IMG/VR virus record: IMGVR_UViG_3300042556_001316
Location: 1 to 64,000 of that record
DNA: 64,000 nucleotides
Direction: 5' to 3' (one strand)
Source of the DNA: a virus
Position numbers and translations under genes: made by a program. This document shows, in pieces, positions 6,256 through 27,679 of the stretch (positions are counted from its first letter, which is position 1; each line of letters begins with the position of its first letter). Below the pieces are notes generated by a model. It was not told the DNA's origin. It saw only the letters and a program-made list of their open reading frames with translations, and did not search any database.

Positions 6256-6468
6256 ATGAAAAAACCACTTACCGCCATGCAATTATGGGAATTTTTAACC
6301 AGCTTACACGAGGAAGGCCACGATTTAGAAAACATTAAAGTATTATACCGATATGATAGGGATAGTGATGATGTATTTGTATATGCAGCAGAGGAGGACT
6401 TATACGATATGAAAACCAATAGCGTATTAGAAACAATAATGTTATTAACTAACCCCGATCAAATATAA
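6256..6468 (+). CDS. small acidic hypothetical protein
   Basis: The 70-residue protein begins MKKPLTAMQLWEFLTSLHEE and continues into an acidic segment (YRYDRDSDDVFVYAAEEDLY). Two strands plus a helix are likely. It was not assigned to a family. It is the first of a run of acidic small proteins to about 7871. Confidence 0.6.
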   Translation: MKKPLTAMQLWEFLTSLHEEGHDLENIKVLYRYDRDSDDVFVYAAEEDLYDMKTNSVLETIMLLTNPDQI

Positions 6469-6473
6469 ACAAT

Positions 6474-6668
6474 ATGGAAGAAGATCTATTTAACACTCCC
6501 GAACTATTACCCCAAGAAGTTAGGGATATTATTGAAAAATACGAGGAAATGGACACTTGTTATGAAATGTGCCAAAACCTAATTGAAGAATTAGAGCCGC
6601 ACGGATATACTTGCGACTATGGACTTGACGGAATACCCTATGAATTAACCACAATTAAAAAAAATTAA
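6474..6668 (+). CDS. small acidic phage protein
   Basis: The 64-residue product is strongly acidic. It contains MDTCYEMCQNLIEELEPHGY then YGLDGIPYEL, a pattern I associate with a small conserved phage protein of unknown function (Tyr-x-x-Cys helix followed by GY-x-C/F-DYGLD). It starts 6 bases after the preceding stop. It is a possible DNA-mimic or inhibitor by charge only. Confidence 0.65.
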   Translation: MEEDLFNTPELLPQEVRDIIEKYEEMDTCYEMCQNLIEELEPHGYTCDYGLDGIPYELTTIKKN

Positions 6669-6679
6669 AACCAATTAAA

Positions 6680-6943
6680 ATGGATATTAGAGAAGAATAT
6701 TATGAACGAGCAACAAGATTTGCTATTGAGTACGGCTACACTGATGTAAGTGAGCATATTTTTGATGTTATGGTTTCTATTATGTGTACGCGTGATAAAA
6801 CCTCGCACTCTGGAGGTAGTTTTGTACAAGCAGTAGTAAACAACGATTTGTATGCAGCTTTGAGCAAAGCAGATGCCGATTGCAGAAACAATATTTATTT
6901 ACTAACTATGTGTAAGGAAAATTGTTTCCTGAATGAATTTTAA
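6680..6943 (+). CDS. small phage protein with GGSFVQAVVNND motif
   Basis: This 87-residue helical protein contains HSGGSFVQAVVNNDLYAAL, which I recognise as a recurrent sequence in short uncharacterised phage proteins. The residues after it (KADADCRNNIYLLT) form a second helix. It is soluble and its function is unknown. Confidence 0.65.
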   Translation: MDIREEYYERATRFAIEYGYTDVSEHIFDVMVSIMCTRDKTSHSGGSFVQAVVNNDLYAALSKADADCRNNIYLLTMCKENCFLNEF

Positions 6944-6955
6944 ATCAATTAAACT

Positions 6956-7162
6956 ATGAAAACAACAACAAATTACCTATCAAATAGGTACACAATCGCC
7001 AATGTAACCGCAACCAATGGAGAAGTTACAAGAACTGAAAGCATTGATCTAATCAACAATGAATTATTTGCTGATGCCGGATCAACTAATGACATCAAAG
7101 AACTTTATGAAGGGTTTTGGGGCGGACAAATACAAGTAACCAACATTGAATTAACCAATTAA
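6956..7162 (+). CDS. small hypothetical protein
   Basis: The 68-residue protein is Thr/Asn-rich with likely beta strands (RYTIANVTATNGEV, GQIQVTNIELTN) and an acidic centre. It opens in the ATTAAACTATG context shared with its neighbours. No family was recognised. Confidence 0.6.
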   Translation: MKTTTNYLSNRYTIANVTATNGEVTRTESIDLINNELFADAGSTNDIKELYEGFWGGQIQVTNIELTN

Positions 7163-7175
7163 AAAAAATTAAACT

Positions 7176-7313
7176 ATGAAACTAATAAAAATGAAAAGAT
7201 TACGAATTTACAAGACCGGCTATAACATTTACTTATTGCCAACCATTAATTACTATCATGTAACAAGAATTTTAGAAATTTCTTTCCTTAAATACACCCT
7301 TAAAATTAGTTAA
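7176..7313 (+). CDS. small basic protein
   Basis: A 45-residue frame begins MKLIKMKRLRIYKTGYNIYL at the shared TTAAACTATG context. It is strongly basic with aromatic beta-like stretches, in contrast to its acidic neighbours. The next gene starts 3 bases after its stop. Confidence 0.5.
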   Translation: MKLIKMKRLRIYKTGYNIYLLPTINYYHVTRILEISFLKYTLKIS

Positions 7314-7316
7314 ACT

Positions 7317-7583
7317 ATGGAAAACAAGACATTATTAATAGATAGAAACGCTTTTTGCGATTGGTATTTTGATCATGATATTTGTAAAGAATTTGTATAT
7401 GCACACGGCATAATACAAGAACTAAAAGACGAAGGCACTTTCACAATAACATTGGACCACATTTTAGATAGTGCTGGATATTTACCTAGTAATTTAGTAT
7501 CAAGCCAACAAGAAGTAGTTATTCTTGATGAACTAGATGAAGTTGATATGTCCTATTATGATAAGATAATATTTGCAGATTAA
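7317..7583 (+). CDS. acidic hypothetical protein
   Basis: The 88-residue protein is very acidic, especially the C-terminal DELDEVDMSYYDKIIFAD. It has no membrane segment. It starts 3 bases after the previous stop, so the two are probably co-translated. No family was recognised. Confidence 0.65.
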   Translation: MENKTLLIDRNAFCDWYFDHDICKEFVYAHGIIQELKDEGTFTITLDHILDSAGYLPSNLVSSQQEVVILDELDEVDMSYYDKIIFAD

Positions 7584-7613
7584 AAAAATTAAATAAATTT
7601 AAACTAAATTAAA

Positions 7614-7871
7614 ATGAAAACATACAATATATCTGGCACTTCATCAACCCGTATTTACTACTTATTTAGATGTGATGATCAAAATAGACCTTCTACTATG
7701 CAAACTGATGAAAGCTATGCTCTTGATGAATATGATGAAGTATATAAATTAAAGGGCGAATTAGACGCCAAAGGTATTAACTACGACCTTCTTATTGAAA
7801 GATTTAATTTAGACAATGATGAAGTATTAAGCAATGATTATATAATCCAAAATAACTATAAAAACGATTAA
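7614..7871 (+). CDS. acidic hypothetical protein
   Basis: An 85-residue product with an initial beta-like stretch (NISGTSSTRIYYLFRCDD) followed by a Tyr/Asp/Glu-rich helical half. It is soluble and acidic and was not recognised. The lipoprotein gene follows 3 bases after its stop. Confidence 0.6.
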   Translation: MKTYNISGTSSTRIYYLFRCDDQNRPSTMQTDESYALDEYDEVYKLKGELDAKGINYDLLIERFNLDNDEVLSNDYIIQNNYKND

Positions 7872-7874
7872 AAC

Positions 7875-8078
7875 ATGAAAAAATTATTAATTGTATGTGT
7901 TGCATTTGCAATGTCATGTGCGAGTTCAAAACAACCCCCAATACCCCCCGAACAATTAGATTTCCCCCCTGAATTTGACAAGTACACAATTAGCCATGAT
8001 AGAGCCAACCCAACCTTATTAATGGCAGTTTACGATACAACCACAAAAAAATACATATTTGAATTTATGGACAATTAA
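7875..8078 (+). CDS. small lipoprotein
   Basis: The N-terminus MKKLLIVCVAFAMSCASS is a lipoprotein signal peptide with the lipobox Cys at residue 15. The mature protein would be about 53 residues, beginning with a Pro-rich stretch (QPPIPPEQLDFPPEFDK). It should be anchored in the host envelope. Candidate roles are superinfection exclusion or receptor masking, known for other phage lipoproteins but not shown here. Confidence 0.75.
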   Translation: MKKLLIVCVAFAMSCASSKQPPIPPEQLDFPPEFDKYTISHDRANPTLLMAVYDTTTKKYIFEFMDN

Positions 8079-8090
8079 ACCCCATAAATA

Positions 8091-8121
8091 TTTGTTTAAT
8101 TAAATTAATTATTTAACTTTA
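8091..8121 (+). promoter_or_regulatory. promoter for the 8146-10497 gene run
   Basis: TTTG at 8091-8094, a 19-base spacer and TAACTTTA at 8114-8121 fit the Bacteroidota -33/-7 layout with one mismatch in the -7 box. The spacer contains the exact 15-mer TTAATTAAATTAATT (8096-8110) that recurs at other transcription starts in this genome. Confidence 0.65.
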
Positions 8122-8145
8122 CTTTTCAAAAAAACTAAATAGGAT

Positions 8146-8376
8146 ATGACAAAGAAGGAAATGCTGCGCGATACCATGTACCGCATGTATAAGGGAGATA
8201 CCATACCATTTGCAGACATGGACGATTTTATAGCTATGTGGAAAGCCTTAGCTGATAAATGGGAAGTATACCTGACTGATGAGGAATGGGATCAATTTGC
8301 CGAAGAAATCAATAGTGAAGCCTCCAATAGACAAAACGTATTTAACGAGATTTTTGACAAACATTTTAACCAATAA
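8146..8376 (+). CDS. acidic helical hypothetical protein
   Basis: This 76-residue, Asp/Glu/Met/Trp-rich protein is predicted all helical (MTKKEMLRDTMYRMYKGDTI). It is the first gene behind the promoter at 8091-8121. There is no membrane segment and no family was recognised. Confidence 0.65.
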   Translation: MTKKEMLRDTMYRMYKGDTIPFADMDDFIAMWKALADKWEVYLTDEEWDQFAEEINSEASNRQNVFNEIFDKHFNQ

Positions 8377-8388
8377 AACCAATTAACA

Positions 8389-8601
8389 ATGACAAAGTAT
8401 GAATTAGTAAAAATTACAAACACAGATGAAACTATTGTATATTTTATTAGAAAGGACGGGGTACATTCAATATCAGGATCATTTACTACAAAATTATATC
8501 AAGCAGAAATAATGTTAGAAAATTTTGAGAGAGGCAAACCAGACGAACCTATTTATGAAACATTAAAAACAATTGAAGTAGAGGAAAATACCAATGACTA
8601 A
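8389..8601 (+). CDS. small hypothetical protein
   Basis: The 70-residue protein is mainly beta then helix (KYELVKITNTDETIVYFIRK). It ends in an acidic tail and its 3' end overlaps the next gene by 8 bases, implying coupled translation. The function is unknown. Confidence 0.6.
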   Translation: MTKYELVKITNTDETIVYFIRKDGVHSISGSFTTKLYQAEIMLENFERGKPDEPIYETLKTIEVEENTND

Positions 8602-8803
8602 AAAAACCAAACAAATTAGCGTATTAGAATATGCTAGTAAAGTAAACCCTGAATTTTTCAGGAAGAATAGGAAGTACCCCGATACCCCCATGACAAGACA
8701 CGCTATTATGTATCGGATCAAAAACAATATGCCACTACCCGAAGTATTAAAGTACAACCGAGTAGGCAAGGTACATGTATTGACCGTAGATGCGAATTTT
8801 TAA
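8594..8803 (+). CDS. small HTH-like protein
   Basis: The 69-residue basic protein contains SVLEYASKVNPEFFRK and MTRHAIMYRIKNNMPLPEVL, which reads like a helix-turn-helix of the excisionase/Xre type: a short helix, a loop with Pro and a helix ending in Arg/Lys. It may be a small DNA-binding regulator. The assignment is from pattern only. Confidence 0.6.
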   Translation: MTKKTKQISVLEYASKVNPEFFRKNRKYPDTPMTRHAIMYRIKNNMPLPEVLKYNRVGKVHVLTVDANF

Positions 8804-8823
8804 ATCAAAAAAAAGTAAATCAA

Positions 8824-9021
8824 ATGAAAACAAATTTAGAATGGGTAATCAATTGTATTAACTCATGTACTAACCTAGAACAATTAAAGACATGTGAAGT
8901 GATTATTGCGCTTTACAAATTTAGATTAGCCAAAGACGGCATGACGGAGGCAGATATATACGGAGAGGAGAGCCAATTATTAACCGCTTATTTAGATAAG
9001 GAGGCTATGTTATTAATCTAA
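8824..9021 (+). CDS. small helical protein
   Basis: The 65-residue product is helical and rich in Leu, Glu and Cys (WVINCINSCTNLEQLKTCEV). Its stop TAA and the next start ATG share one base (TAATG), so translation is coupled. It was not recognised. Confidence 0.6.
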   Translation: MKTNLEWVINCINSCTNLEQLKTCEVIIALYKFRLAKDGMTEADIYGEESQLLTAYLDKEAMLLI

Positions 9022-9215
9022 TGGGTAATAGATACCAAATATCCGAATCTGCCATGATCCAAATGGAAAATGACTACTTGAAGGAGAGGATAGAATTGCT
9101 AAAAAATGAAGTTAGATACTTAAAGGAAAAGTTATTGTCTTATGAGGAAACCAGCACCGGAAAGGGATATAATGCAGAGCAAACGTCAAGAACTCAAATC
9201 ATCAGGGATAATTGA
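9021..9215 (+). CDS. small coiled-coil protein
   Basis: The 64-residue protein has a central coiled coil (YLKERIELLKNEVRYLKEKL) with clear heptads. It begins at the A that ends the previous stop codon. The 3' end overlaps the next gene in another frame. It probably oligomerises. The function is unknown. Confidence 0.6.
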   Translation: MGNRYQISESAMIQMENDYLKERIELLKNEVRYLKEKLLSYEETSTGKGYNAEQTSRTQIIRDN

Positions 9216-9363
9216 GGTATGGGTAAATGATAGCTTGTATGCAACGAAACAATTTAAGGGTAAAAGCCACCGCAGTAAAATCATTCAGGAATGGCTGCAA
9301 ATGATAGGCAAACCCTTTGAACCAAGAAAAATTTATTTAGTAGTAAAACCAATGCACCTATGA
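9172..9363 (+). CDS. small basic protein
   Basis: I chose the ATG at 9172, preceded by GGAAAGGGATATA, over 9142, giving 63 residues. It is basic with strand-like segments (GIIEVWVNDSLYATKQF and KIYLVVKPMHL). It overlaps both neighbours, the next gene by 4 bases (ATGA). No family was recognised. Confidence 0.55.
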   Translation: MQSKRQELKSSGIIEVWVNDSLYATKQFKGKSHRSKIIQEWLQMIGKPFEPRKIYLVVKPMHL

Positions 9364-9587
9364 CAAACATGACACCAATTAGACAAGTAATGGAGGCTAG
9401 AAGTTTCCGTAACCAAAATGATTTTGACTCATGGCTTTTAGATAACTTTGATAGGCTATTTGAGGCAGAAAAAGAAATGATAGCAGAGGCTATGGAATAT
9501 GCTTTTGATGAGGACGGGCATAGCAAAACATGGCGCAAAAACGTAATTGAGAAGTATTATTTGGAAAAGTACATTGAAAAAAAATAA
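9360..9587 (+). CDS. acidic helical hypothetical protein
   Basis: The 75-residue product is helical with paired aromatic and acidic residues (WLLDNFDRLFEAEKEMIAEA). Its ATG overlaps the preceding stop by 4 bases, a coupling arrangement. It is soluble and unrecognised. Confidence 0.6.
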   Translation: MTNMTPIRQVMEARSFRNQNDFDSWLLDNFDRLFEAEKEMIAEAMEYAFDEDGHSKTWRKNVIEKYYLEKYIEKK

Positions 9588-9598
9588 AAAACTAAACC

Positions 9599-9811
9599 AT
9601 GACCGATTTACAAAAGCAATACATAGACCAAAACTACCAGCATGAGCCAATATCCATGATGATACCCAATATCAACCTAACCTATTTGCAGATATTGACA
9701 TATTACAAATCAATGGGATATGAGCCATTAAAGAAAAGAGGTAGAAGGCATGAGTATAAAACCCCTTCCGGCTACTTTGATATTGATAACTATAAACCTG
9801 AAACAATATAA
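9599..9811 (+). CDS. small HTH-like protein
   Basis: The 70-residue product begins MTDLQKQYIDQNYQHEPISM and continues LTYLQILTYYKSMGYEPLKK then RGRRHEYK. Such an arrangement of helices followed by a basic patch resembles a small homeodomain-like or HTH DNA-binding fold. Membership of a family was not established. Confidence 0.6.
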   Translation: MTDLQKQYIDQNYQHEPISMMIPNINLTYLQILTYYKSMGYEPLKKRGRRHEYKTPSGYFDIDNYKPETI

Positions 9812-9814
9812 GCT

Positions 9815-9898
9815 ATGATTCTACTATTTATTGGGATAATAATAGTTTTACTTGCTATTATAGAGGTAATTGAAGTTTACAAACAAACAAAAAAATAA
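9815..9898 (+). CDS. 27-residue membrane peptide
   Basis: The frame is a single hydrophobic helix (MILLFIGIIIVLLAIIEVIE) with a short basic tail, starting 3 bases after the previous stop and ending just before the next small membrane gene. Spacing and hydrophobic pattern support it as a real gene. Confidence 0.5.
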   Translation: MILLFIGIIIVLLAIIEVIEVYKQTKK

Positions 9899-9899
9899 T

Positions 9900-10028
9900 A
9901 TGGAATCATATTTAGTAGCCTTTACAATATCTTTTATTGTAGCCATACCTATTTCTATTGTATGGGTATACTTTATAGATAAAAGTAAAAAAATATTAGA
10001 GCAAGACGAAAAAAATAAATTAAAATAA
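9900..10028 (+). CDS. 42-residue membrane protein
   Basis: A single hydrophobic segment (about residues 4-24) is followed by a charged Lys/Glu tail (DKSKKILEQDEKNKLK), so the C-terminus is probably cytoplasmic. It starts one base after the previous stop. It is part of a series of small membrane genes ending at 10497. Confidence 0.55.
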   Translation: MESYLVAFTISFIVAIPISIVWVYFIDKSKKILEQDEKNKLK

Positions 10029-10029
10029 A

Positions 10030-10071
10030 GGTAGTAATACTACCATTTTTAGTAAAGTAATAGCTTTACTA
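10030..10071 (+). repeat. two adjacent perfect inverted repeats
   Basis: GGTAGTAATACTACC (10030-10044) is a perfect palindrome followed by T-rich sequence. TAGTAAAG at 10050-10057 pairs with CTTTACTA at 10064-10071 around a 6-base loop. They sit in the 60-base gap between two membrane-protein genes and could be a terminator-operator pair or an RNA structure. Confidence 0.6.
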
Positions 10072-10088
10072 TATAACAAATTTATTAC

Positions 10089-10328
10089 ATGAGAACATTA
10101 ATTATTATTGTCTTATTGTGGGTTATAGGCGCGTTAATAGTGGTTATAGCTGCCATGATAGAGCAAAAGAACAACATGGAGATTAAAATGGCTACCATGC
10201 AATCAAAATCAGATAGCCTATATGATGAAATTGTGCCATTAAAGTACCAAAATCAAAGGTATGAGTTCATTTATGACCAGTTAAGCACAAATCCGGAAGT
10301 ACAAAAAGCATTTAACGAAACCGAATAA
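10089..10328 (+). CDS. membrane-anchored coiled-coil protein
   Basis: The 79-residue protein has one transmembrane helix at residues 4-24 and then a helical hydrophilic part with Met/Gln/Lys repeats (IEQKNNMEIKMATMQSKSDS) that would extend into the periplasm or cytoplasm. It follows the inverted repeats at 10030-10071. The shape resembles small inner-membrane phage proteins, but the function is unknown. Confidence 0.6.
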   Translation: MRTLIIIVLLWVIGALIVVIAAMIEQKNNMEIKMATMQSKSDSLYDEIVPLKYQNQRYEFIYDQLSTNPEVQKAFNETE

Positions 10329-10338
10329 ACAAAAAAAC

Positions 10339-10497
10339 ATGAAAAAATTAATTGGGATCTTTCAGGTAATCTTTTTCTTTTTAGTTGGCATACCAACTTT
10401 TATTTTACTTTACGGGGCAATTATTATCTCCTTTGCGATTAAGGAATTAATCCTCTTCATCTTCGGGAGGCGCGAGGTCTATTTGGATAACAGATAG
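10339..10497 (+). CDS. 52-residue membrane protein overlapping an opposing gene
   Basis: The frame encodes MKKLIGIFQVIFFFLVGIPT and a second hydrophobic stretch, then RREVYLDNR. It is the last rightward gene of the region and its 3' end overlaps the minus-strand gene at 10447-10605 by 51 bases tail to tail. There is no terminator between the two converging units. Confidence 0.5.
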   Translation: MKKLIGIFQVIFFFLVGIPTFILLYGAIIISFAIKELILFIFGRREVYLDNR

Positions 10498-10605
10498 TAT
10501 CTTTAAGTCCTTGTATTTTTGTAGCACATCAGACGTTGAAACGGCATAAACCAGCTTGGTCATTTTGGTTCCGTCCTTGTCAAAGAATATGCGGTACGTT
10601 TTCAT
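10447..10605 (-). CDS. small hypothetical protein at the end of the sugar-transfer operon
   Basis: Using the ATG at 10605 gives 52 residues beginning MKTYRIFFDKDGTKMTKLVY and ending with an acidic PPEDEED tail. The start overlaps the upstream stop by one base (TGATG), so I prefer it over upstream ATG codons at 10617 and 10632. It is probably a small alpha/beta protein. The function is unknown. Confidence 0.6.
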   Translation of the reverse strand: MKTYRIFFDKDGTKMTKLVYAVSTSDVLQKYKDLKILSVIQIDLAPPEDEED

Positions 10606-10829
10606 CAGTTTTGCCATTTGCCTTTTGGACAACCATCTGCCCCTTTTGGTGAGAAAACTTTTTTACTTGTTGTGCAGCCACATACTTCACAATAGTCCCG
10701 TAATGTACCCTGAACCCAGTGTTCGCAATCAATACAAGTTAAGAGTCTTTCTTGCGCAAGCTGGCTTTGTTCTTCTGTTGGATTGAAGGAAGCTGTGTAC
10801 GATAGAAATATTTCTTTTAACTTGTTCAT
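10605..10829 (-). CDS. small Cys-rich, zinc-ribbon-like protein
   Basis: From the ATG at 10829 (ATGA overlap with the upstream stop) the product is 74 residues. It contains CIDCEHW then DYCEVCGC and later DGCPKGKW, that is two CxxC pairs and further Cys, which suggests a zinc ribbon or rubredoxin-like knuckle. This resembles small Cys-cluster proteins (DUF6171-like) often found beside glycosyltransferases in phages. I infer a stabilising or accessory role in the sugar-transfer operon. Confidence 0.65.
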   Translation of the reverse strand: MNKLKEIFLSYTASFNPTEEQSQLAQERLLTCIDCEHWVQGTLRDYCEVCGCTTSKKVFSPKGADGCPKGKWQN

Positions 10830-13754: not shown

Positions 13755-14733
13755 GAATAGCTATATTATTTACCTTAAAATCTCCGTTCTTTTCTACTAA
13801 TATATGAGCAAATCCTAAATTGTGTTTTGTTCCATGTGGATCATAGTCCGGAGCTAGTGTACAAAGACAACCAACCGACCATGTGCCAATGGTTTCTCCT
13901 TTCAATGTTTTCTCAACATGATGGCTAGTGGTATGCACATGACCAATGATAGCATTTGATTTAACGCGAAGGAATAAACCTCTGGCTGCGTTTACGGGAG
14001 CAAATACTCCACGAATCATTGTATGACCATGATGCATCTGTAACTTACCAGCCATTAAAACTACATGCTCAGCAAAGAACTTTACACCCAACTCATCAAG
14101 CTTCATTCTTTGTGGCAAATGGTAATACTCATCACTGAATAAGATCGGAGCCTTCTTCATTAGATAGCGCTTAATCCACGCGTCATGATTACCTTCAATC
14201 CAATAGAACTTGGCTTTTGGGAATTGATATTTTAGATATTCTATAAATTGTTTTGCATATTGAAACCACGTTCTAACATCATCTAGGCCCGGCGGTGGCG
14301 AATCATGGCTTGTAAACGGAGTATTATCCAGTATGTCACCTCCTAGAACAATGCAGTTTATACCATTCTCTTTGCCATATTTAACGGCTAATTCTATGGC
14401 TTCATTGTCTTGGTTAGGAATATGGACATCAGAAAGCCAAAGAATGTTATTGCACTCTTTGGGTAGTATCTGAAATTCTCTTTCCTTGCAATTTGAAGGA
14501 GGTAGTTGTGGGTTGTGTTCCATTACGTTTTTTGTATGTTTTCTATGTGTTTCGCCGTTAGCACCAGTTATCTGCCTAATCATCATTCTAGCCGCTTCAG
14601 GATTATCAAACAAATGAGGATACCTTTCAAATGCTATTTTTCCTAAATTAGATTTAGAACTATTAGGGAACTCCAATAAAAGCTCTCTTAATAATCTATT
14701 TTTCTGTGTTGGACCTGTATGCTGATTTGCCAT
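13735..14733 (-). CDS. calcineurin-like metallophosphoesterase
   Basis: All phosphoesterase motifs are present: DVH (102-104), GGDILDN (131-137), GNHD (180-183), HHGH in KLQMHHGHTM and GHVH in NAIIGHVHTT. These bind two metals for phosphodiester or phosphomonoester hydrolysis. About 90 residues precede the catalytic domain; the first 55 are basic and helical (RLLRELLLEFPNSSKSNLGK) and could be a DNA-binding head. The whole reads as a phage nuclease or phosphatase. Its start shares one base with the stop of the homing endonuclease gene. Confidence 0.88.
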   Translation of the reverse strand: MANQHTGPTQKNRLLRELLLEFPNSSKSNLGKIAFERYPHLFDNPEAARMMIRQITGANGETHRKHTKNVMEHNPQLPPSNCKEREFQILPKECNNILWLSDVHIPNQDNEAIELAVKYGKENGINCIVLGGDILDNTPFTSHDSPPPGLDDVRTWFQYAKQFIEYLKYQFPKAKFYWIEGNHDAWIKRYLMKKAPILFSDEYYHLPQRMKLDELGVKFFAEHVVLMAGKLQMHHGHTMIRGVFAPVNAARGLFLRVKSNAIIGHVHTTSHHVEKTLKGETIGTWSVGCLCTLAPDYDPHGTKHNLGFAHILVEKNGDFKVNNIAIHDGRII

Positions 14734-15395
14734 TATGCTAAATATTTAAAAGAATATCCCTTTAATTTTTTCCTTCCGCCCAATCCTCTAGCAATTAAAG
14801 AAGCTTTGCCACTATATTTTACAGGATTCAATCCAACTGAACGCAGGGCTTCAGAAATAGAATGATACACACCAAGAGATTCATTAGTATCACAATTTAT
14901 GATTTCAGTTTTTTTAGCTTGTCCTGATTTTATACTTGCTAATGATTGCTTCTTTTTTGTTTCTTCTGATTTCTTTTTAGATTCAAAAACACCTCTTTTT
15001 ACAAGAGTTTCATAAGTTTGTTTTATACCAAATCTATGGTTTTTATCACCTAGCTTTTGCTCTCTCAATTTTTGACGTGTTTCATTTGATCTAATACAAT
15101 TCCAAATTCCATCCCCACCATCAGTCATATTACATAAAGATCCTGTTTTTAAATCAATTCTACCATATAAATATATAAACTCACTTTCTTTTTCAGCCGC
15201 TTGACTTTTCGTTAATCCATCAAATAAAATCTCAACTTCATAAGAAGATTTTAAAACAATATCATTCCATATTTTATTTCTTTTAGAACAATGGTTTTCA
15301 TAGGCTCTTGCATGATTGTTTTTATTACCTATTCCTATATAGAAAGGTTCATTTTTATCAATTCTTATATGCCTATAAACGTACCAGTTATTCAT
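14733..15395 (-). CDS. GIY-YIG homing endonuclease
   Basis: The N-terminus WYVYRHIRIDKNEPFYIGIG holds the GIY-YIG catalytic core (variant WYVY/FYIGIG), with further motif residues through about 90 (EKESEFIYLYGR, CNMTDGGDG). Downstream are NUMOD3-like repeats (RQKLREQKLGDKNHRFGIKQ and ETKKKQSLAS) and a NUMOD1-like C-terminus (YHSISEALRSVGL). It is free-standing and intact, 220 residues, and AT-rich. It is wedged with no spacing between the lysozyme and metallophosphoesterase genes, which fits a selfish insertion into an operon. Confidence 0.92.
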   Translation of the reverse strand: MNNWYVYRHIRIDKNEPFYIGIGNKNNHARAYENHCSKRNKIWNDIVLKSSYEVEILFDGLTKSQAAEKESEFIYLYGRIDLKTGSLCNMTDGGDGIWNCIRSNETRQKLREQKLGDKNHRFGIKQTYETLVKRGVFESKKKSEETKKKQSLASIKSGQAKKTEIINCDTNESLGVYHSISEALRSVGLNPVKYSGKASLIARGLGGRKKLKGYSFKYLA

Positions 15396-18400: not shown

Positions 18401-19741
18401 ATGCCAACTAGCTTTCAATTTTTCAAGCAAGAAGTCAGGGATTACATTGTAGATAACATAGCCGTAAACAAAAAGATATTAGATGTAGGGGCTGGTATTG
18501 GTACCTATTCTGATTTGCTTAAAAACTATGGTTATTACATGGATTGCGTAGAGATATACGAACCCTATGTAGTTAATTACCAATTAGATAAGAAGTACAA
18601 CAATGTTTTTATACAGAGTGTAGTTGGCTTCCATTTTGACTATTACGAGTTTATTATCATGGGTGATGTACTGGAACATTTGTCTGTGGAAGATGCGCAA
18701 AGCATAATCAAAAAGATAGTCCATAGCGGTAAGCAGTGTCTGGTGGCAGTACCTTTTATGATGGAACAGGGGGAACATGAAGGCAATGTCCATGAAACTC
18801 ATTTGCAGCCTGATTTAAGTCCGGCGGTCATGGAAATCAGATACCCAGAACTTCAACTACTCTATGCCAATCAATACTATGGCTACTATGTAAACAAGAA
18901 ACAAAAGCATAAAAGAGCCTATTTATTGTACGCTGATGAGTCCTATGCCGACTTGGTTCAAGTATGCGTTGAATCAATCCGTAAGTTCAGCGAGATACCA
19001 ATCCTAGTTTATATGCTCAACTCTGATAAAAAGATTGAAAATACGGAAACAATAAGATGGGATTGTGATGTAAAGCACCTGAAACAAAGGGCTGATTACA
19101 TTGATAGATCCAACAAAAGCATCTATAAACTACTTATACAAAGACCTTTAATAACTAAACATGCACTGGAAAACTATGCTGAAACGATTGCGTATGTGGA
19201 TTCTGACTCTGTGGCTAGTCCATTTGTTGACAACATCTTTACTTTCTATAATGAAGAATCTAGTCACCCCTATTTTACAGAAGGTATCTATGAGTATCTT
19301 ATGGTCAATGGTAGAGGCGGCGCTGAAAGCAGGGCGGATTTAAGCACTACATTAGAAGCTCCAGCCTGTGAGCTATTCAACATAAACCAGTATGTCCGTA
19401 ACAGATACAGGCAAACAGGATATTATGTTGCAGGGCAAAATACCATTGAATTTTTAGATGAATGGTACTGGATGTGTAACCACCCTAAAGTATTAAAGAA
19501 CCACAACTATTATGCTCCGTTCCACGAAGAAACAATACTGCAAGCCCTTCTGTATAAACGTATGACGTTTTCAGGACTGCCATACTGCTACATCAATGGA
19601 CTACATAAAGACCTAGAATTTACTGGTCGTGATAACTTAATAGGACCATGGATTAAAGTACCTTCACATAAAGAACATCTCCTATTCTATCATGGAGAAA
19701 AAAACATTCAAAAGATTAAAGAATTTATAGAAACACTATGA
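18401..19741 (+). CDS. methyltransferase-glycosyltransferase fusion
   Basis: Residues 1-165 are a class I SAM methyltransferase: motif I ILDVGAGIGTYSDLL (26-40), an acid after strand 2 (CVEIYEP, Glu51) and GDVLEHL (88-94). Residues about 170-446 are a GT-A-type glycosyltransferase beginning KRAYLLYADESYADLVQVCV, with the metal motif YVDSDS (265-270, Asp267-x-Asp269) and conserved-looking FHEETILQALLY near the end. The two halves probably act on one glycan. It overlaps the next gene by 4 bases (ATGA), so the two are co-translated. Confidence 0.8.
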   Translation: MPTSFQFFKQEVRDYIVDNIAVNKKILDVGAGIGTYSDLLKNYGYYMDCVEIYEPYVVNYQLDKKYNNVFIQSVVGFHFDYYEFIIMGDVLEHLSVEDAQSIIKKIVHSGKQCLVAVPFMMEQGEHEGNVHETHLQPDLSPAVMEIRYPELQLLYANQYYGYYVNKKQKHKRAYLLYADESYADLVQVCVESIRKFSEIPILVYMLNSDKKIENTETIRWDCDVKHLKQRADYIDRSNKSIYKLLIQRPLITKHALENYAETIAYVDSDSVASPFVDNIFTFYNEESSHPYFTEGIYEYLMVNGRGGAESRADLSTTLEAPACELFNINQYVRNRYRQTGYYVAGQNTIEFLDEWYWMCNHPKVLKNHNYYAPFHEETILQALLYKRMTFSGLPYCYINGLHKDLEFTGRDNLIGPWIKVPSHKEHLLFYHGEKNIQKIKEFIETL

Positions 19742-21792
19742 GAATATTATTTTTAGCTCCGCACTTATCAACAGGGGGGATGCCCCAGTTCCTTTTGAAA
19801 AGACTTCAAGGATTGAGAAACCATACCAATAATGAATATTATGTGGTAGAGTATCAATGCCATAGCCTAGATTATGTGGTTCAACGTAATGCCATAAAGG
19901 ATTTAGTTGGTAGTAATTTTACTACCCTTTATGAGAATAAGATGGAGCTATTTGATGTAATAGAAAGCTTCCAGCCTGATATAATCCATATAGATGAAAT
20001 GTCTGAAAGATTGGATAGAAAAATGGTAAAGAAGCTTTACAACCCAGATAGAAAGTATCGCATTGTAGAAACCTGCCATGACATTTCCTTTGCTCCAAAC
20101 AGCAAGTTATTCCACCCAGACCTATATTCATTCTGTACTCCGTATCATGAAGAAACTTTTGCTGATTTGGAATCCAAGTATGTTACAATACTTTATCCAA
20201 TAGATGAAATGAATCTTACCAAGTTCAAGACTATCTGGCAAGATGAATTAGGCTTTGATAGAAACAAGAAGCATGTGCTAAATGTTGGCTTATGGACTCC
20301 GGGCAAGAATCAAGCTGAAGGAATAGAAATAGCTCGTAAATACCCTGATATGATGTTTCACTTTGTGGGTAATCAGGCTGGCAATTTTAAGATTTACTGG
20401 GAACCATTGATGCAGGATTTACCACCCAACGTAAAGGTATGGGGAGAGCGTACTGATATTGACCACTTCATGATAGCATCAGATCTATTTATGTTTAATA
20501 GTACATGGGAATGTAATCCATTAGTACTTCGTGAAGCCATTGGATATGGGCTACCTATTGTTGCGCGGAATCTTCCTCAGTATGCCGGAATGTATGATAA
20601 ATACACATACTCAATAGATGCTGATTTAGAACTGATAGCTAAGTACAATAATATTACATACGATATACCAAAAGACAATACCACATGTGACTTTGCAATA
20701 GCGCATCAAGTAGCCTATGAAAAGATATTAGAACTTCCAGCACAAAAACAAAAGGTCCGCATCTTACAAAACTTCATCAACCACCCTTTCCTTGAAATAA
20801 AAGGAGAAAGCGATAGTGAATTTGATGTTAGATTCTATGATGAAAATGATGTATGCCAATACCAAAGTGTAATCAAAAGCAATAGCTGGGTAAGGCTTAA
20901 CAGACAATATTGTACCAAATGGAAAACGTATGTATATCAGGACGGAGAGTTAATCTATGAAAACGTATTGGATCTGCATGGTAAAAGGGTATTCATATCA
21001 ATAGAAAGTAGCGCACTTGGAGATACTATTGCATGGGTTCCGTATGCTTTAGAGTTCCAAAAGAAGCATGGATGCAAAGTCGTGTTGTCCACTTTTCATA
21101 ATAAAATACTGGACTATCCTGAACTTGAATTAGTAGAACCCGGCAGCTCTGTTAACTGCTATGCCATGTATAAGATTGGTTGGCACTATGACACTAGCAG
21201 AGAGCCTGAATTACCAAACACAATACCACTACAAAAAGCAGCGTGTAATATTTTGGGATTAAAATACACCGAAATTCGCCCCAAATTATTTACCAAGAGG
21301 AATTGCCCATTGCATGACAAATACATCACTATTGCCACTAATTCTACCACAGGATGTAAGTTTTGGGTAAGAGAAGAATGGCAGAAACTAATTGACCATT
21401 ACACCGAACAAGGTTACAAGGTATACAATGTTTCCAAAGAAGTTAATCCATTTGATAATTGCCCACAGATACCAGATACATCAATGGAATCAACAATGGA
21501 TTGGATATATCATAGCATGTTCTTTGTAGGGTTAAGTTCAGGGCTTAGCTGGTTGGCGTGGGCTTTGGGTAAACCAGTTGTATTAATCAGTAATTTTACT
21601 GAATTTGACCATGAGTTTCTTACCAACTGCATACGAATCACAAACGAAAAAGTATGTCATGGATGCTGGAACAAACCAGAAATAAAATTTGATAAAGGCA
21701 ATTGGAATTGGTGTCCTTACAATAAAAACTTTGAGTGCCAGACTTCAATCACCGCAGATATGGTAATCAATAGAATTAGTCGTTACTTCTAA
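19738..21792 (+). CDS. GT4 glycosyltransferase fused to a BAHT-type O-heptosyltransferase
   Basis: Residues 1-345 are a GT4 GT-B enzyme: MRILFLAPHLSTGGMPQFLL, then GLWTPGKNQAEGI and the E-x7-E motif ECNPLVLREA (258-267). Residues about 360-684 match the autotransporter strand-loop-strand O-heptosyltransferase family (Aah/TibC): a beta lead-in (FDVRFYDENDVCQYQS), SSALGDTIAWVPY with Asp429, SGLSWLAWALGKPVVLIS and a Cys set at 640, 643, 659 and 667 (CHGC, WCP, ECQ) like the iron-binding cysteines of that family. BAHT enzymes O-glycosylate Ser in repetitive adhesins. The adjacent opposite-strand genes encode Ser/Thr-rich virion proteins. Confidence 0.85.
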   Translation: MRILFLAPHLSTGGMPQFLLKRLQGLRNHTNNEYYVVEYQCHSLDYVVQRNAIKDLVGSNFTTLYENKMELFDVIESFQPDIIHIDEMSERLDRKMVKKLYNPDRKYRIVETCHDISFAPNSKLFHPDLYSFCTPYHEETFADLESKYVTILYPIDEMNLTKFKTIWQDELGFDRNKKHVLNVGLWTPGKNQAEGIEIARKYPDMMFHFVGNQAGNFKIYWEPLMQDLPPNVKVWGERTDIDHFMIASDLFMFNSTWECNPLVLREAIGYGLPIVARNLPQYAGMYDKYTYSIDADLELIAKYNNITYDIPKDNTTCDFAIAHQVAYEKILELPAQKQKVRILQNFINHPFLEIKGESDSEFDVRFYDENDVCQYQSVIKSNSWVRLNRQYCTKWKTYVYQDGELIYENVLDLHGKRVFISIESSALGDTIAWVPYALEFQKKHGCKVVLSTFHNKILDYPELELVEPGSSVNCYAMYKIGWHYDTSREPELPNTIPLQKAACNILGLKYTEIRPKLFTKRNCPLHDKYITIATNSTTGCKFWVREEWQKLIDHYTEQGYKVYNVSKEVNPFDNCPQIPDTSMESTMDWIYHSMFFVGLSSGLSWLAWALGKPVVLISNFTEFDHEFLTNCIRITNEKVCHGCWNKPEIKFDKGNWNWCPYNKNFECQTSITADMVINRISRYF

Positions 21793-21798
21793 TAAAAA

Positions 21799-21819
21799 AA
21801 GCAGGTTCGCAGCCTGCTT
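21799..21819. terminator. bidirectional terminator
   Basis: AAGCAGG (21799-21805) pairs with CCTGCTT (21813-21819) around a 7-base loop, with A-rich sequence on the left and T-rich on the right. It lies between the converging 19738-21792 and 21845-22198 genes and can stop both. Confidence 0.75.
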
Positions 21820-21844
21820 AATTTATTATTACTAACCTTTAAAA

Positions 21845-22198
21845 CTACTTATCTAATTCATTGCTTAAATCAACAATGGTTTTTGATACCACTCCCCACT
21901 TCATTTCTTTGAAGAGTTCTTTTAATTTGGTAAAATCAGCATCTTCTAATTCTAATGTAGCTTTTCTTTCAAGAAAATCATCATTAAAATCTTCTGACTT
22001 AATTTCAAATAAGTCTTTGTGCTTTTCAACTATACCCAGTAAACGAAGTCTTTTGATCATTTCATCTACATTAAAACCTCCTTGTACTGGATTATTAATG
22101 ACTGATTTTAATAAATCATAAGTGGTTAAAAAGGTTTCCTGCATACCATTTTTACTTGGTAATAATTCTTTAGCTACTACTAGTTCAATTGATTTCAT
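21845..22198 (-). CDS. acidic helical hypothetical protein
   Basis: The 117-residue protein is helical and acidic at its C-terminal half (LELEDADFTKLKELFKEMKW). There is no membrane segment or signal. It is the last gene of the leftward virion side and has its own candidate promoter at 22213-22220. Size and acidity could suit a tail-assembly chaperone or a small regulator, but I cannot place it. Confidence 0.65.
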   Translation of the reverse strand: MKSIELVVAKELLPSKNGMQETFLTTYDLLKSVINNPVQGGFNVDEMIKRLRLLGIVEKHKDLFEIKSEDFNDDFLERKATLELEDADFTKLKELFKEMKWGVVSKTIVDLSNELDK

Positions 22199-22212
22199 AT
22201 ATATATTTTTAA

Positions 22213-22238
22213 CAAAATTAATGAATTAATTTAATTAA
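22213..22238 (-). promoter_or_regulatory. promoter with 15-mer for 21845-22198
   Basis: TAATTTTG on the minus strand (22213-22220) is a -7 box 14 bases before the ATG at 22198. The exact 15-mer TTAATTAAATTAATT (minus strand, 22224-22238) lies just upstream of it, within the usual spacer. Confidence 0.6.
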
Positions 22239-22248
22239 AAAAAAATAT

Positions 22249-22638
22249 TTATGGAGCCTCGGTTGTCGTGGTTGTATCAGGAGCTTTTGTAGTCGTAGTT
22301 GTGGTTGGGAGCCATGGGAGCGGAAGTGTCACCTCCACAGGGTTAATCTGTAAAGCAATATTAGCCTCAAGACTTGCCTGCATAGCATCTACAGGAAGAA
22401 TTGCTTCTAACCATCCAATTACTTCGGCTTCTGTTACATCTGCGTAAGGGATGAAGTTTTGTGGATTTGGTTGTGTTACACTAGCAACAGAGTATGTATC
22501 TGCAAAATAAACCTTACCGTCATGCTCTTGTGTTGCGTTGTATCTATAGTGTATCTGATTGATAACGTCAGGTAAGCCCTCAGATTCAACTGCACAATTG
22601 AGTTCGCTGATGGTCCATGAAAATACTGTTGTTGCCAT
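22249..22638 (-). CDS. small virion-associated protein with Thr-rich tail
   Basis: The first 105 residues form a compact domain (VFSWTISELNCAVESEGLPD, then VINQIHYRYNATQEHDGKVY and VTEAEVIGWLEAIL) that I recognise as a recurrent phage domain found next to fibres. The last 20 residues are a Thr-rich tail, TTTTTTKAPDTTTTTEAP in form, encoded by mixed Thr codons. It lies 12 bases downstream of the fibre gene and is probably part of, or a chaperone for, the fibre. Confidence 0.65.
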   Translation of the reverse strand: MATTVFSWTISELNCAVESEGLPDVINQIHYRYNATQEHDGKVYFADTYSVASVTQPNPQNFIPYADVTEAEVIGWLEAILPVDAMQASLEANIALQINPVEVTLPLPWLPTTTTTTKAPDTTTTTEAP

Positions 22639-22650
22639 TTTTGTTTTATT

Positions 22651-25600
22651 TTATTTGTTTTTAATTAAATCAAGTTCTGCCTTCAATTCCTTAACGGCAT
22701 TTACCAAAGTTACAAATATACCTTCAGTTTCAAGTCCTAAGTATTCTGAGTTTTCATCTAGTTTTCTAGCTAATTCAGGCATTACTTCCTTTACTTCTTG
22801 CGCTATGAAACCATATTTTAGATTTGTAGCGTTATCATTATAATAGAATGATTTAGGATTAAGCTGCATCACCTCATTAAGACCATAGGTTAAAGGCTTA
22901 ATGGTATTCTTAAGTCTGTAGTCTGATGGGTTGGTGTTTGTTAGGAAGCCTGCATTTGAATAAACAGTTCCTGTACCTAATGCTCCAACATATACACTTC
23001 CAAATGCACCTATTCCATTTACATAGAACTTAGCTCCTTGAGTGGTTGCTGTTGCGTTTACTAATACATCTCCTGCGGATGTTATGCGCATACGTTCGGT
23101 GTTACCTGTTCTTATATGAAAATCACTTACACTTGTTGTTCCTACAAAAGAGTCGCTTGAAACTCCACACTCAAGCATTACTACTGTACCAGCAGGGTTT
23201 GTTATTCTTACACCTTTTGTGCCATCTACTGATGCTGATGCAACTGCTAAACTTAATAAAGCCGTTGGTGATGTAGTACCTATACCTACGTTACCCCCAC
23301 TTGTTATGCGCATACGTTCGCTAAATGATGCAGAAGCACCAGCACTTCCAGATGCAGCATTAGCCCAAAATATTGAACCATCAGAATCAAACCCCATTCT
23401 ACCAATTCCTCCCGTACCTATGTATCTATATGTAGAGCCATCATAATACACATTATTCGTTAATTGAGAATATACGCCTCCGTTTGTATGTAACGATGCG
23501 TTTCCAACTTGTAATACATTAGGGAATGTAGCTGTGTTCCAAGCACTTGGCGTAACTCCTATACCTACGTTACCCGAACTTGTTATGCGCATACGTTCGC
23601 TTCCACCAAATGGGGTAGTTGCTCCTGTGTTAAATATTATATCTCTATTTTCAACAGAAAATTCTAATCCATTGCCTGAACCTTTATTTACTCCAATCCA
23701 CGCTTGGTCTCCACCCGCACCGCCACTTGTTATTTGTATTGCAGTTCCAACTCCCGAAGATGAGCCAAGAGTAGTTTCTAAATGTAACAACTGACTTGGC
23801 GATGTAGTACCTATACCTACGTTACCTGAAGGTGTAATTATTAAAGGTGTAGCAGTACCACCATTAGATGCACTAATTTGAAACTTTAAACCACCATAAG
23901 TAGATGTATTAGCCCCCCAAGCATTAATTTTACCATAACCACTTTCAAAGGCAATACCTACTTTACTTGTTTCATTAGATAAAAAATCAGAACCAAATAA
24001 TCCACTTGTTGCCGTTACACTACTTGAGAATGTAGCTGCTCCTGTAGAGGCTATTGTTAAAGCAACCGCAGGATTGCTTCCAGAAGTAGCAGTTAAAAAT
24101 CTCATTTGACTTTCTGCACCTGCATCAGCATTTGAAACAATATCCATAGTCCTTGTAAACGGACTTCCTGATGCACTATAATATGATGTTATGATTGCAC
24201 CTAAATCTTTTGAATATGTTGCTAAAGCTGAAGGGTTAGAAGTATCGTAAATTCTTAATGCACCGCCTGACTTATATATGTCTAATGTATATCCCGGAGA
24301 AGTAGTACCAATTCCCAAATTACCTGAAGCGTTTAACGTCATTGCTTGGGTAAAGGATATAGCGTTACCTGCCGTTCCTGAAGGAGCTTGAAACCATTCG
24401 TGAGCATTTCTACGAATTACATATTTAGCCGCTTCTGCACTTGCGTAGTAAGTTTCAGCATTACTTGAATTTACATAAGCATTATTAAATAAGTTAATTA
24501 CATTATCATTTGTTTGGGCAGTAAAAGCACCTGCATAAGAAGTGCCTGAAAAATTACCACCTAATTGCATTACTTTATGTACTACGAACCACGCACTCGG
24601 TGTAACTCCCAATCCTAAATTGCCTTTGTAATCTAATGTTAAAGTTCTTAACCACCCACCATTATATGTATAAAAATCAACTCCTTGATAACCAGAAATA
24701 ACTCCTGATTGTCTTGTTCCATCTCCACCTATACTTAGTCCATATCCACTTACTGCTGCATTAATATTAACATAAGCAGTAGTACCTGTTAAATTAGCTC
24801 CTGATGTTTGTACATTCAATCCTGTTACATTCATTGTTGTACCACCAATAGCAACTGATGTTCCATTATCAAACACTAAGCTATTACCTATTGTACTTGT
24901 ACCTGTAAACTTAGGTAGGTAGTTTGTAGTACCCGTTCCTGTTACTTGATTGGTAGGAGTAAATCCAGATGTACCCGAAGTAGCAGATGTCCCAGACGTA
25001 CCAGATGATCCAGATGTACCATTTACCGCAGAAGTACCACTCGTACCTGTCGTACCTGATGAACCCGAACTGCCGCTCGTACCACTTGAACCTGACGTAC
25101 CTGTTGTACCAGATGTACCAGACGTACCCGTACTACCACTAGTTCCTGACGTACCCCCCGTTCCATTTGTACCCGATGAACCTGAAGTTCCTGACGTACC
25201 TGATGATCCAGATGTTCCGTTAAATCCTGATGTGCCGGACGTGCCTGTCGTACCTGATGTACCAGTCGTACCCGAACTTCCAGAAGAACCAGATGAACCG
25301 CTCACTCCCGAACTACCAGAGGTACCAGAGGTGCCGTTTACACCACTACTTCCACTTGTTCCTGTCGTACCAGAGGTGCCTGAACTTCCTGAGCTTCCAC
25401 TTGTTCCAGATGTTGTACCTACAGCTATACCAACTTGTTTTGTTACAACAATAACTGATGGAGCCGCTGGCACCACATAAGGAGTTGTCTGAGCCGGAAC
25501 CGCTGTTACTTGAACATGGTCACTGTCAGAAGCAAAATATATTTCTAAATAATCATTAGCAGCAAGCTCCAACATTATTGAAACAAATGGAAGTTGCTTT

Positions 25601-27165
25601 ACGCTATTAGAACTTAAACCTAAAATTGAATCAGTCCTAATAACATCAGTTCCATTCTTCTTCAACCATATTTCTACATCAGCAGCAGAACCGCCTTGAG
25701 TCTTTTCTACTTGTAAAGAATAACCTATTTCGTAAATACCAGCATGCTGATAAACAATTTGAGAACCACTAATTGTAGTACCATTAGAAATCTCTACCGT
25801 ATTATAAGTAATAGGAGTAGGAGTATTGGCAGCTGTAACAACTTGTGTTAATGAACTTGAAAAAGAACCATACCAGTTAGCAATAGAAGCTCCTGAAGAA
25901 CCATCTATACCATTACGTCCTGATGTTCCCGAAGTGCCACTTGAACCCGAAGAACCTGAACTGCCTGATGTGCCTGTCGTACCAGAGGAACCTGATGTGC
26001 CTGTAGTACCTGACGTACCGCTAACACCTGAAGTTCCTGACGTACCGCTTGATCCATCGCCTCCACTAGCACCATCTAAGTTTATTGTCCATGATGAATA
26101 TGTTCCGGAACCTACTGTTCTAATTGGAGCTGCAAATTGCAATGCTCCGGTTCCTGAGTTATATGAAATAACCTCACACTCTTGGAAATTGTTTGCATCA
26201 TAAACCACAATAATTGATTGAGCAACAGAATATGCTAACCCTGTACCAACTGTTATAGTTCCTGCATTACCAAGAGTAAAGGTTGATGTTGATGTTGTGT
26301 AATATTTATCTCCAGAATATCCCGAAGTTCCAGATGTACCTGATGTGGCTGAAGTTCCAGAAGAACCGCTTGTAGCCGAAGTACCAGAAGTGCCACTAGT
26401 CGCTGAAGTTCCAGACGTACCCGAAGAACCAGACGTACCATCTATAGCAGATGTACCCGAAGAACCAGAGCTTCCCGAAGAACCTGATGAACCTGAAGTG
26501 CCGTCTATACCCGAAGTGCCATTTATTCCCGATGTACCTGATGTGCCGTTACTTCCATCTAATCCAGAACTACCAGAGCTTCCAGATGTACCATCAATCC
26601 CAGAAGATCCTGACGTACCATTACTACCATTCGCCCCTGAACTACCTGAACTACCTGATGAACCCGAAGTCCCAGAGGAACCAGAAGTTGCTGAGCTTCC
26701 TGATGTACCTGAAGTGCCATCTATACCTGAGCTGCCTGACGTACCTGATGTGCCACTTGTTGCTGATGTACCTGATGTACCAGTGGTGCCTGACGTACCA
26801 GAACTACCTGATGTACCAGAACTACCAGAGGTACCTGTGGTACCAGACGTACCCGATGTCCCATTACTACCCGTGGTACCAGATGTGCCTGAGCTACCAC
26901 TAGTCGCTGAACTCCCACTAGTACCCGAAGAACCATTTAATCCCGAAGTCCCAGAACTACCTGAAGATCCGCTTGTACCGGTGCTACCCGAAGAACCAGA
27001 AATACCAGATGAGCCACTAGATCCTGACGTTCCTGACGAACCGCTAGATCCCGAAGTCCCAATAGTACCAGAAGTATCTGCGGAAACTAAACCATCCACA
27101 GCTACTAAAATCCCGTTTTCATTACGAAGCTGGAACTCTCCCGTTATTAAATTTTGTACAGCCAC
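22651..27165 (-). CDS. Gly-X-Ser/Thr repeat tail fibre with S74 chaperone domain
   Basis: The 1,504-residue fibre has a short head, then three blocks of collagen-like Gly-X-Ser/Thr triplets (about residues 30-285, 370-420 and 585-736). They are separated by beta domains resembling receptor or C1q-like folds. Residues about 740-1410 hold modules containing NVGIGTTSP and VGIGVTPSAW, five copies. The C-terminus SDYRLKNTIKPLTYGLNEVM from Ser1414 is a peptidase S74 intramolecular chaperone, expected to trimerise the fibre and cut itself off before Ser1414. The start codon is GTG at 27165, right after the HNH gene. It is the likely receptor-binding fibre. Confidence 0.9.
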   Translation of the reverse strand: MAVQNLITGEFQLRNENGILVAVDGLVSADTSGTIGTSGSSGSSGTSGSSGSSGISGSSGSTGTSGSSGSSGTSGLNGSSGTSGSSATSGSSGTSGTTGSNGTSGTSGTTGTSGSSGTSGSSGTSGTTGTSGTSATSGTSGTSGSSGIDGTSGTSGSSATSGSSGTSGSSGSSGSSGANGSNGTSGSSGIDGTSGSSGSSGLDGSNGTSGTSGINGTSGIDGTSGSSGSSGSSGSSGTSAIDGTSGSSGTSGTSATSGTSGTSATSGSSGTSATSGTSGTSGYSGDKYYTTSTSTFTLGNAGTITVGTGLAYSVAQSIIVVYDANNFQECEVISYNSGTGALQFAAPIRTVGSGTYSSWTINLDGASGGDGSSGTSGTSGVSGTSGTTGTSGSSGTTGTSGSSGSSGSSGTSGTSGRNGIDGSSGASIANWYGSFSSSLTQVVTAANTPTPITYNTVEISNGTTISGSQIVYQHAGIYEIGYSLQVEKTQGGSAADVEIWLKKNGTDVIRTDSILGLSSNSVKQLPFVSIMLELAANDYLEIYFASDSDHVQVTAVPAQTTPYVVPAAPSVIVVTKQVGIAVGTTSGTSGSSGSSGTSGTTGTSGSSGVNGTSGTSGSSGVSGSSGSSGSSGTTGTSGTTGTSGTSGFNGTSGSSGTSGTSGSSGTNGTGGTSGTSGSTGTSGTSGTTGTSGSSGTSGSSGSSGTTGTSGTSAVNGTSGSSGTSGTSATSGTSGFTPTNQVTGTGTTNYLPKFTGTSTIGNSLVFDNGTSVAIGGTTMNVTGLNVQTSGANLTGTTAYVNINAAVSGYGLSIGGDGTRQSGVISGYQGVDFYTYNGGWLRTLTLDYKGNLGLGVTPSAWFVVHKVMQLGGNFSGTSYAGAFTAQTNDNVINLFNNAYVNSSNAETYYASAEAAKYVIRRNAHEWFQAPSGTAGNAISFTQAMTLNASGNLGIGTTSPGYTLDIYKSGGALRIYDTSNPSALATYSKDLGAIITSYYSASGSPFTRTMDIVSNADAGAESQMRFLTATSGSNPAVALTIASTGAATFSSSVTATSGLFGSDFLSNETSKVGIAFESGYGKINAWGANTSTYGGLKFQISASNGGTATPLIITPSGNVGIGTTSPSQLLHLETTLGSSSGVGTAIQITSGGAGGDQAWIGVNKGSGNGLEFSVENRDIIFNTGATTPFGGSERMRITSSGNVGIGVTPSAWNTATFPNVLQVGNASLHTNGGVYSQLTNNVYYDGSTYRYIGTGGIGRMGFDSDGSIFWANAASGSAGASASFSERMRITSGGNVGIGTTSPTALLSLAVASASVDGTKGVRITNPAGTVVMLECGVSSDSFVGTTSVSDFHIRTGNTERMRITSAGDVLVNATATTQGAKFYVNGIGAFGSVYVGALGTGTVYSNAGFLTNTNPSDYRLKNTIKPLTYGLNEVMQLNPKSFYYNDNATNLKYGFIAQEVKEVMPELARKLDENSEYLGLETEGIFVTLVNAVKELKAELDLIKNK

Positions 27166-27166
27166 C

Positions 27167-27679
27167 TTAAACGTATTTAAATTTTGTTGTATTTTTTAAT
27201 TCCCCACTTAATCTTCTCCACAAATATTTTGCATTTACATTAATAGTATCAGCAGCCTCTTTAGCTCCTTCATAAAAGACACCTGTTTCAGTATCTAATA
27301 CAATTTTCTTAAATACATATCCATTTTTTGCCCCAAATCTTTCAGCAGCCACCCTGCCACTTTCTCTTAAAGCTTCTGATACCCTTCTTAAACCTGTATC
27401 ACAAGCATGCTTCATATTTTCTGATGGGGTAGCCCATTCTAAATTAAACAATAAATTGTTTGTTTTGACGCCATCAATGTGGTTTACAGTTGCTTTATTT
27501 TCAGGATTTTCAATATACGTTTGAGCAACTAACCTATGTGCTAAATATGATTTATTGCCTATTTTAACATATACATAATCATTTTTAACAAAATTTCTCA
27601 AAAATCTCATTGTTTTCAAAGAAAATACTCTGCCATCCAATGTTATTAAATAGTCAGTCATTCCTTTTATTAACTTCAT
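27167..27679 (-). CDS. HNH homing endonuclease
   Basis: The 170-residue protein shows an HNH_3-type core: AHRLVAQTYI, then VNHIDGVKTNNLLFNLEWAT (about 65-84) with the His and Asn residues of the fold. It is preceded by a NUMOD4-like start (YLITLDGRVFSLKTMRFLRN) and followed by a NUMOD1-like DNA-binding end (YEGAKEAADTINVNAKYLWR). It is intact and free-standing, placed one base upstream of the fibre's GTG start, between two virion genes. Confidence 0.92.
   Translation of the reverse strand: MKLIKGMTDYLITLDGRVFSLKTMRFLRNFVKNDYVYVKIGNKSYLAHRLVAQTYIENPENKATVNHIDGVKTNNLLFNLEWATPSENMKHACDTGLRRVSEALRESGRVAAERFGAKNGYVFKKIVLDTETGVFYEGAKEAADTINVNAKYLWRRLSGELKNTTKFKYV

Follow-up and report, generated by a model that had tools for sequence, protein, structure and literature searches.

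A GT4-fused, TibC-like glycosyltransferase encoded near a collagen-like tail fibre in a phage genome: a candidate enzyme-substrate pair

The DNA analysed here (the window, 64,000 nt from a 66.8-kb virus record) contains a gene for a two-domain glycosyltransferase that converges on a gene for a long, Ser/Thr-rich fibre (Table 1). This arrangement raises the question of whether the phage encodes an enzyme for decorating its own virion, as the original prediction proposed. The reading favoured here, with a probability of about 0.75, is that the fusion protein is a two-step cytoplasmic protein glycosyltransferase acting on the phage's own collagen-like fibre.

Table 1. Features of the glycosyltransferase-fibre region, in window coordinates.
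Feature	Coordinates	Strand	Basis
446-aa protein, N-terminal SAM methyltransferase-like domain	18401..19741	+	Pfam Methyltransf_23, E 7.5e-6, just below cut-off
GT4-BAHT-like fusion glycosyltransferase, 684 aa	19738..21792	+	ORF, Pfam, NCBIfam, TibC sequence and structure matches
GT4 domain, residues 1-355	19738..20802	+	PF00534 (Glycos_transf_1), E 3.3e-11
TibC/Aah-like (BAHT-like) domain, residues 360-682, including N-terminal beta-barrel region	20815..21783	+	TIGR04414
Four-Cys iron-finger motif, C640/C643/C659/C667	21655..21738	+	Aligned with TibC C339/342/358/370
Hairpin between convergent genes, terminator-like on both strands	21799..21819	.	Consensus scan
117-aa protein	21845..22198	-	No Pfam or PHROG match
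DUF7936 protein, Thr-rich C-terminal tail, possible second acceptor	22249..22638	-	PF25590, E 1e-24; tail from translation
Collagen-like tail fibre, 1504 aa, probable acceptor	22651..27165	-	PF01391, PF13884, PHROG tail-fibre families
Peptidase_S74 intramolecular chaperone, fibre residues 1414-1465	22771..22926	-	PF13884, E 2.4e-14
Gly-X-Ser/Thr block 3, fibre residues 587-727	24985..25407	-	Repeat scan
Gly-X-Ser/Thr block 2, fibre residues 371-427	25885..26055	-	Repeat scan
Gly-X-Ser/Thr block 1, fibre residues 33-287, short breaks	26305..27069	-	Repeat scan

The fusion of a GT4 domain to a TibC/Aah-like (BAHT) domain, proposed from the sequence alone, is borne out by the Glycos_transf_1 match in the N-terminal half and by profile and structural comparisons of the C-terminal half. 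The LGD, SGLSWLAWALGKP and four-Cys features noted in the latter are all present, the cysteines being spaced as CxxC-x15-C-x7-C. Against NCBIfam TIGR04414 (hepto_Aah_TibC) this half scores 229.6 bits (E 5.6e-68; curated cut-off 200), and it matches the TibC crystal chains by sequence at E 3e-41. An AlphaFold2 model of the fusion enzyme (20-sequence alignment, mean pLDDT 89) contains the TibC fold, including its N-terminal beta-barrel; Foldseek aligns it with TibC (4rap) over about 375 columns, taking in the whole C-terminal half, at E 3.2e-26 and a TM-score of 0.82 normalised by TibC. The catalytic Asp (D110 in TibC) is Asp429, and the donor-site residues T226, K230 and W305 correspond to T537, K541 and W605; nearly all phage members retain these residues. 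The cysteines align with the TibC iron finger (PMC4358343).

The BAHT identification therefore stands for the fold, the catalytic residues and the iron finger, but not for strict membership of the family. Judging from the alignment, the window enzyme is not a typical BAHT, as it lacks the beta-hairpin thumb that the TibC dodecamer needs (PMC4358343) and has Thr (T586) in place of the adenine-contacting Arg286. The thumb segment (TibC 252-286) is 35 residues long in TibC and 34-35 in 73 autotransporter-side sequences, against 25 in the window enzyme, and Arg occupies the 286 position in just 9 of 64 phage sequences, compared with 81 of 95 bacterial ones. Thumb loss is not universal among phages: the enzymes of L026 and L421 retain Arg286 as well as a segment of 35 residues, and the Ser/Thr repeat pattern is matched 122 times in the L421 record. 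With the thumb missing and Arg286 replaced, heptose should not be assumed to be the sugar transferred, and the oligomeric state may differ from that of TibC.

The domain combination recurs widely. All eight BAHT-like ORFs that were scanned, taken from diverse phages, have both GT4 and GT9-type domains, while in L014, L016, L019, L020 and L028 a stand-alone BAHT-like gene has a separate GT4 homologue nearby; that the two domains occur both fused and split suggests they belong to one pathway. Two ORFs (L018, 8036-10828; L422, 9318-11636) contain extra partial BAHT-like stretches, as if duplicated. The methyltransferase-like ORF upstream of the fusion gene shares four bases with it, and in L010 a single 1152-aa ORF has a methyltransferase match at residues 20-95 followed by the GT4 and BAHT-like domains. 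The AlphaFold model of the upstream protein is poor past about residue 220, no fold was obtained for its C-terminal half (pLDDT 61), and its only PDB profile match outside the methyltransferase part was a weak one to dephospho-CoA kinase.

On the opposite strand, the fibre has the three Gly-X-Ser/Thr blocks originally described, together with an S74 chaperone and matches to PHROG tail-fibre families. Its match to Pfam Collagen has an E-value of 5e-54, and an NCBIfam scan returned collagen-type models only. Strict Gly-X-Y (GXY) runs total 414 residues, 242 of them Ser or Thr and none Pro; runs of at least 10 triplets were absent from a 1.03-Mb control of 120 random viral stretches. Contrary to the original description, the fibre and enzyme genes are not direct neighbours but have two small minus-strand genes between them. 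The second of these encodes the DUF7936 protein, whose Thr-rich end reads TTTTTTKAPDTTTTTEAP. Terminator-like sites such as the hairpin between the convergent genes are no commoner in this region than in shuffled sequence. Directly upstream of the fibre gene is an HNH_3 match (27167-27679, minus strand), a possible homing endonuclease, and a second candidate with weak NUMOD matches lies near the lysozyme (14733-15395, minus strand). Elsewhere in the window, 6240-10826 holds an early-gene-like block of about 20 small plus-strand ORFs, none longer than 100 aa.

The lineage of the window was assembled by terminase as a set of 39 records, many of them fragments and, as loci of one lineage, not independent of each other. 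TIGR04414 was found in 18, all of which also have the collagen fibre, and among records longer than 57 kb the two occur together in all but one. The exception (IMGVR_UViG_3300032323_002596, 59.9 kb; L045 and L046) has two inverted terminase copies and is probably an assembly chimera. Across the lineage, identity to the window is 85-97% for terminase, 50-91% for the GT4 half and 54-97% for the BAHT-like half; the module thus varies much faster than the terminase or is exchanged. Terminase, GT4 and BAHT-like identities are 96, 82 and 67% in G006, and 91, 51 and 68% in G037. In L109-L125 the two halves diverge from the window independently, as if exchanged separately. The nearest named terminases, at about 28% identity, are from Flavobacterium and Cellulophaga phages, which suggests, but does not establish, a host in the Bacteroidota. 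Flavobacterium phage records gave no matches to the enzyme, and an isolate from the Elemovirus group of Flavobacterium phages has a GXY fibre of the proline type.

The pairing of enzyme and repeat extends well beyond this lineage. A Ser/Thr-rich GXY run lies near the enzyme at 9 of 15 distant phage loci; the 120 random stretches of viral sequence have none (p = 2e-10). The association was also examined in reverse, with 50 viral records selected solely because their DNA matched the repeat pattern and 38 random records as controls. An enzyme above the TIGR04414 cut-off was present in 19 of the former and none of the latter (p = 4e-6), although the random records are shorter (about 1.44 vs 4.06 Mb by hand-summed lengths) and scaling for length brings the p-value to about 0.003. 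Of the 20 enzyme-bearing records in this sample, 13 have a Ser/Thr GXY ORF within 10 kb of the enzyme; the closest spacings are 29 and 57 bases, and records as long as 249-548 kb have spacings of 1.3-4.6 kb. The GT2 family, taken as a generic control, is also commoner in the repeat-bearing records (13 of 50, against 3 of 38 random ones), a weaker enrichment than that of the enzyme. Part of the enzyme's enrichment may thus reflect phages that are rich in glycosyltransferases, and because of this control the reverse test is not treated as proof by itself. Nor does the repeat require the enzyme, since 30 of the 50 repeat-bearing records, many of them fragments, have no such gene; conversely, the strict repeat pattern is absent from some enzyme-bearing records. 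The pair is also found in an isolate, the Microcystis phage Mel-JY01, where a Ser/Thr GXY ORF that ends at 3049 precedes the enzyme gene (4750-8430). This plus-strand ORF (in L547, 1-3052) overlaps a CDS annotated on the minus strand at 739-2298, apparently an annotation error.

Bacterial genomes contain two groups of related enzymes. A 107-row tree puts 44 rows, including TibC, on the autotransporter side and all of the phage rows plus 20 bacterial ones on the other; in a 77-row tree, the branch separating phage and some bacterial enzymes from the autotransporter type has 100/100 support. Neighbourhoods differ in the same way. A Ser/Thr GXY gene is nearby in 15 of the 20 phage-side bacterial rows but in none of the 43 autotransporter-side rows (of 44) whose fetched stretches, up to 10 kb on each side, were examined (p = 1e-10). 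The autotransporter target repeat TIGR04415 shows the opposite distribution, with 15 of 16 autotransporter-side genomes and none of 16 phage-side bacterial genomes having it. Among the bacterial partners on the phage side are small proteins that resemble lipoproteins and consist of (GTS/GSS)n repeats, many of them encoded 14-180 bases from the enzyme gene; in Methylobacter luteus, too, the enzyme gene lies beside one for a repeat protein. The repeat triplets are alike in phages and bacteria, X being mostly Thr or Ser and Y mostly Ser. Because the window enzyme's relatives adjoin the same repeat in both, the phage-side branch of this autotransporter-glycosylating family very probably decorates collagen-like proteins rather than autotransporters. 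The enzyme-fibre partnership, for which a survey of related genomes had been suggested, is thus supported by co-occurrence, adjacency and phylogeny in phages and bacteria alike. A broader proposal seems reasonably likely: that these enzymes form a separate BAHT-like branch, lacking the ring-forming thumb in most members examined and, in phages, usually carrying a fused GT4 domain. Its members would be specialised for adding O-linked sugars to Gly-[Thr/Ser]-Ser collagen-like repeats, both in phage fibres and in bacterial proteins that are secreted or lie at the cell surface, and their donor could be a sugar other than heptose.

Three known systems come closest. The window enzyme shares with the BAHTs the beta-barrel fold, the catalytic Asp, the donor-site Thr, Lys and Trp and the four-Cys iron finger, but is thumbless, GT4-fused, altered at Arg286 and on a separate tree branch; its partner is a collagen-like Gly-X-Ser/Thr repeat protein, with no autotransporter substrate seen. 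A parallel in gene arrangement is Clostridioides difficile SgtA, encoded beside bclA3, which O-glycosylates Thr/Ser of a collagen-like repeat in vitro with GlcNAc (PMC7157674). There too the glycosyltransferase gene is close to a collagen-like repeat gene, and the case shows that a glycosyltransferase can O-glycosylate a collagen-like repeat whose gene lies beside its own, although BclA3 belongs to a spore, not a virion, and its repeat is Gly-Pro-Thr. Mycobacteriophage virion proteins carry glycans (Freeman et al. 2023, as cited in PMC12619734); the targets given there are the C-termini of capsid and tail-tube subunits, unlike the collagen-like fibre proposed here. Among the papers searched, none dealt directly with phage BAHTs or glycosylated collagen-like phage fibres; a single one named the family, and its occurrence in phages was described in none.

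From these sequence-based observations we infer the following chemistry, order of steps and acceptor. During virion assembly, the BAHT-like half would place the initial sugar on Ser/Thr residues of the fibre's Gly-[Thr/Ser]-Ser repeats, and the GT4 half would then extend or cap it, possibly with a further extension or cap contributed by the upstream methyltransferase-like protein. The nucleotide-sugar donor would presumably come from the host, since no gene for its synthesis was recognised among the window ORFs searched; the "autonomous phage pathway" originally envisaged is unsupported for the same reason. The modification might stabilise proline-free collagen-like helices, or alter adsorption or access by proteases or antibodies.

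The acceptor could also be a different one, either a glycan on the host surface or a different protein of the virion such as the DUF7936 product, with enzyme and fibre linked because they share a variable host-interaction cassette. Genes near fibres are often exchanged together, which would fit this explanation, as would the far greater variability of the GT4 and BAHT-like halves than of the terminase and the mild enrichment of GT2 genes in repeat-bearing records. It appears unlikely, however, in view of the bacteria without obvious phage context in which a stand-alone enzyme from the window enzyme's branch is paired with small Gly-[Thr/Ser]-Ser proteins that look like lipoproteins or secreted proteins, an arrangement that a phage cassette does not explain.

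It is likewise doubtful that the enzyme is a true BAHT, dodecameric and ADP-heptose-dependent like TibC, although this would be compatible with the fibre as acceptor. The TIGR04414 cut-off that it passes is an equivalog one, and it retains the catalytic Asp, the Lys and Trp and the iron finger; the shortened thumb segment, the Thr at the Arg286 position and a place across the 100/100 branch from the autotransporter side all point the other way. Glycosylation of phage DNA bases is very improbable. Phage glycosyltransferases can act on DNA, according to work cited in PMC12619734, but TibC, the nearest enzyme of known structure, O-glycosylates protein, and the genes searched included no recognisable gene for modified-nucleotide synthesis, for which reason the idea was set aside.

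If glycosylation of the fibre by the fusion enzyme is correct, the phage would itself encode the means to glycosylate its receptor-binding fibres, through a well-defined pair of enzyme and substrate, and this would hint at the use made of proline-free, collagen-like Gly-Ser/Thr repeats. "Autotransporter heptosyltransferase", the label of TIGR04414, would then be a misnomer for a large phage branch of the family. As the cultured Microcystis phage Mel-JY01 has both enzyme and repeat, the question is directly testable there.
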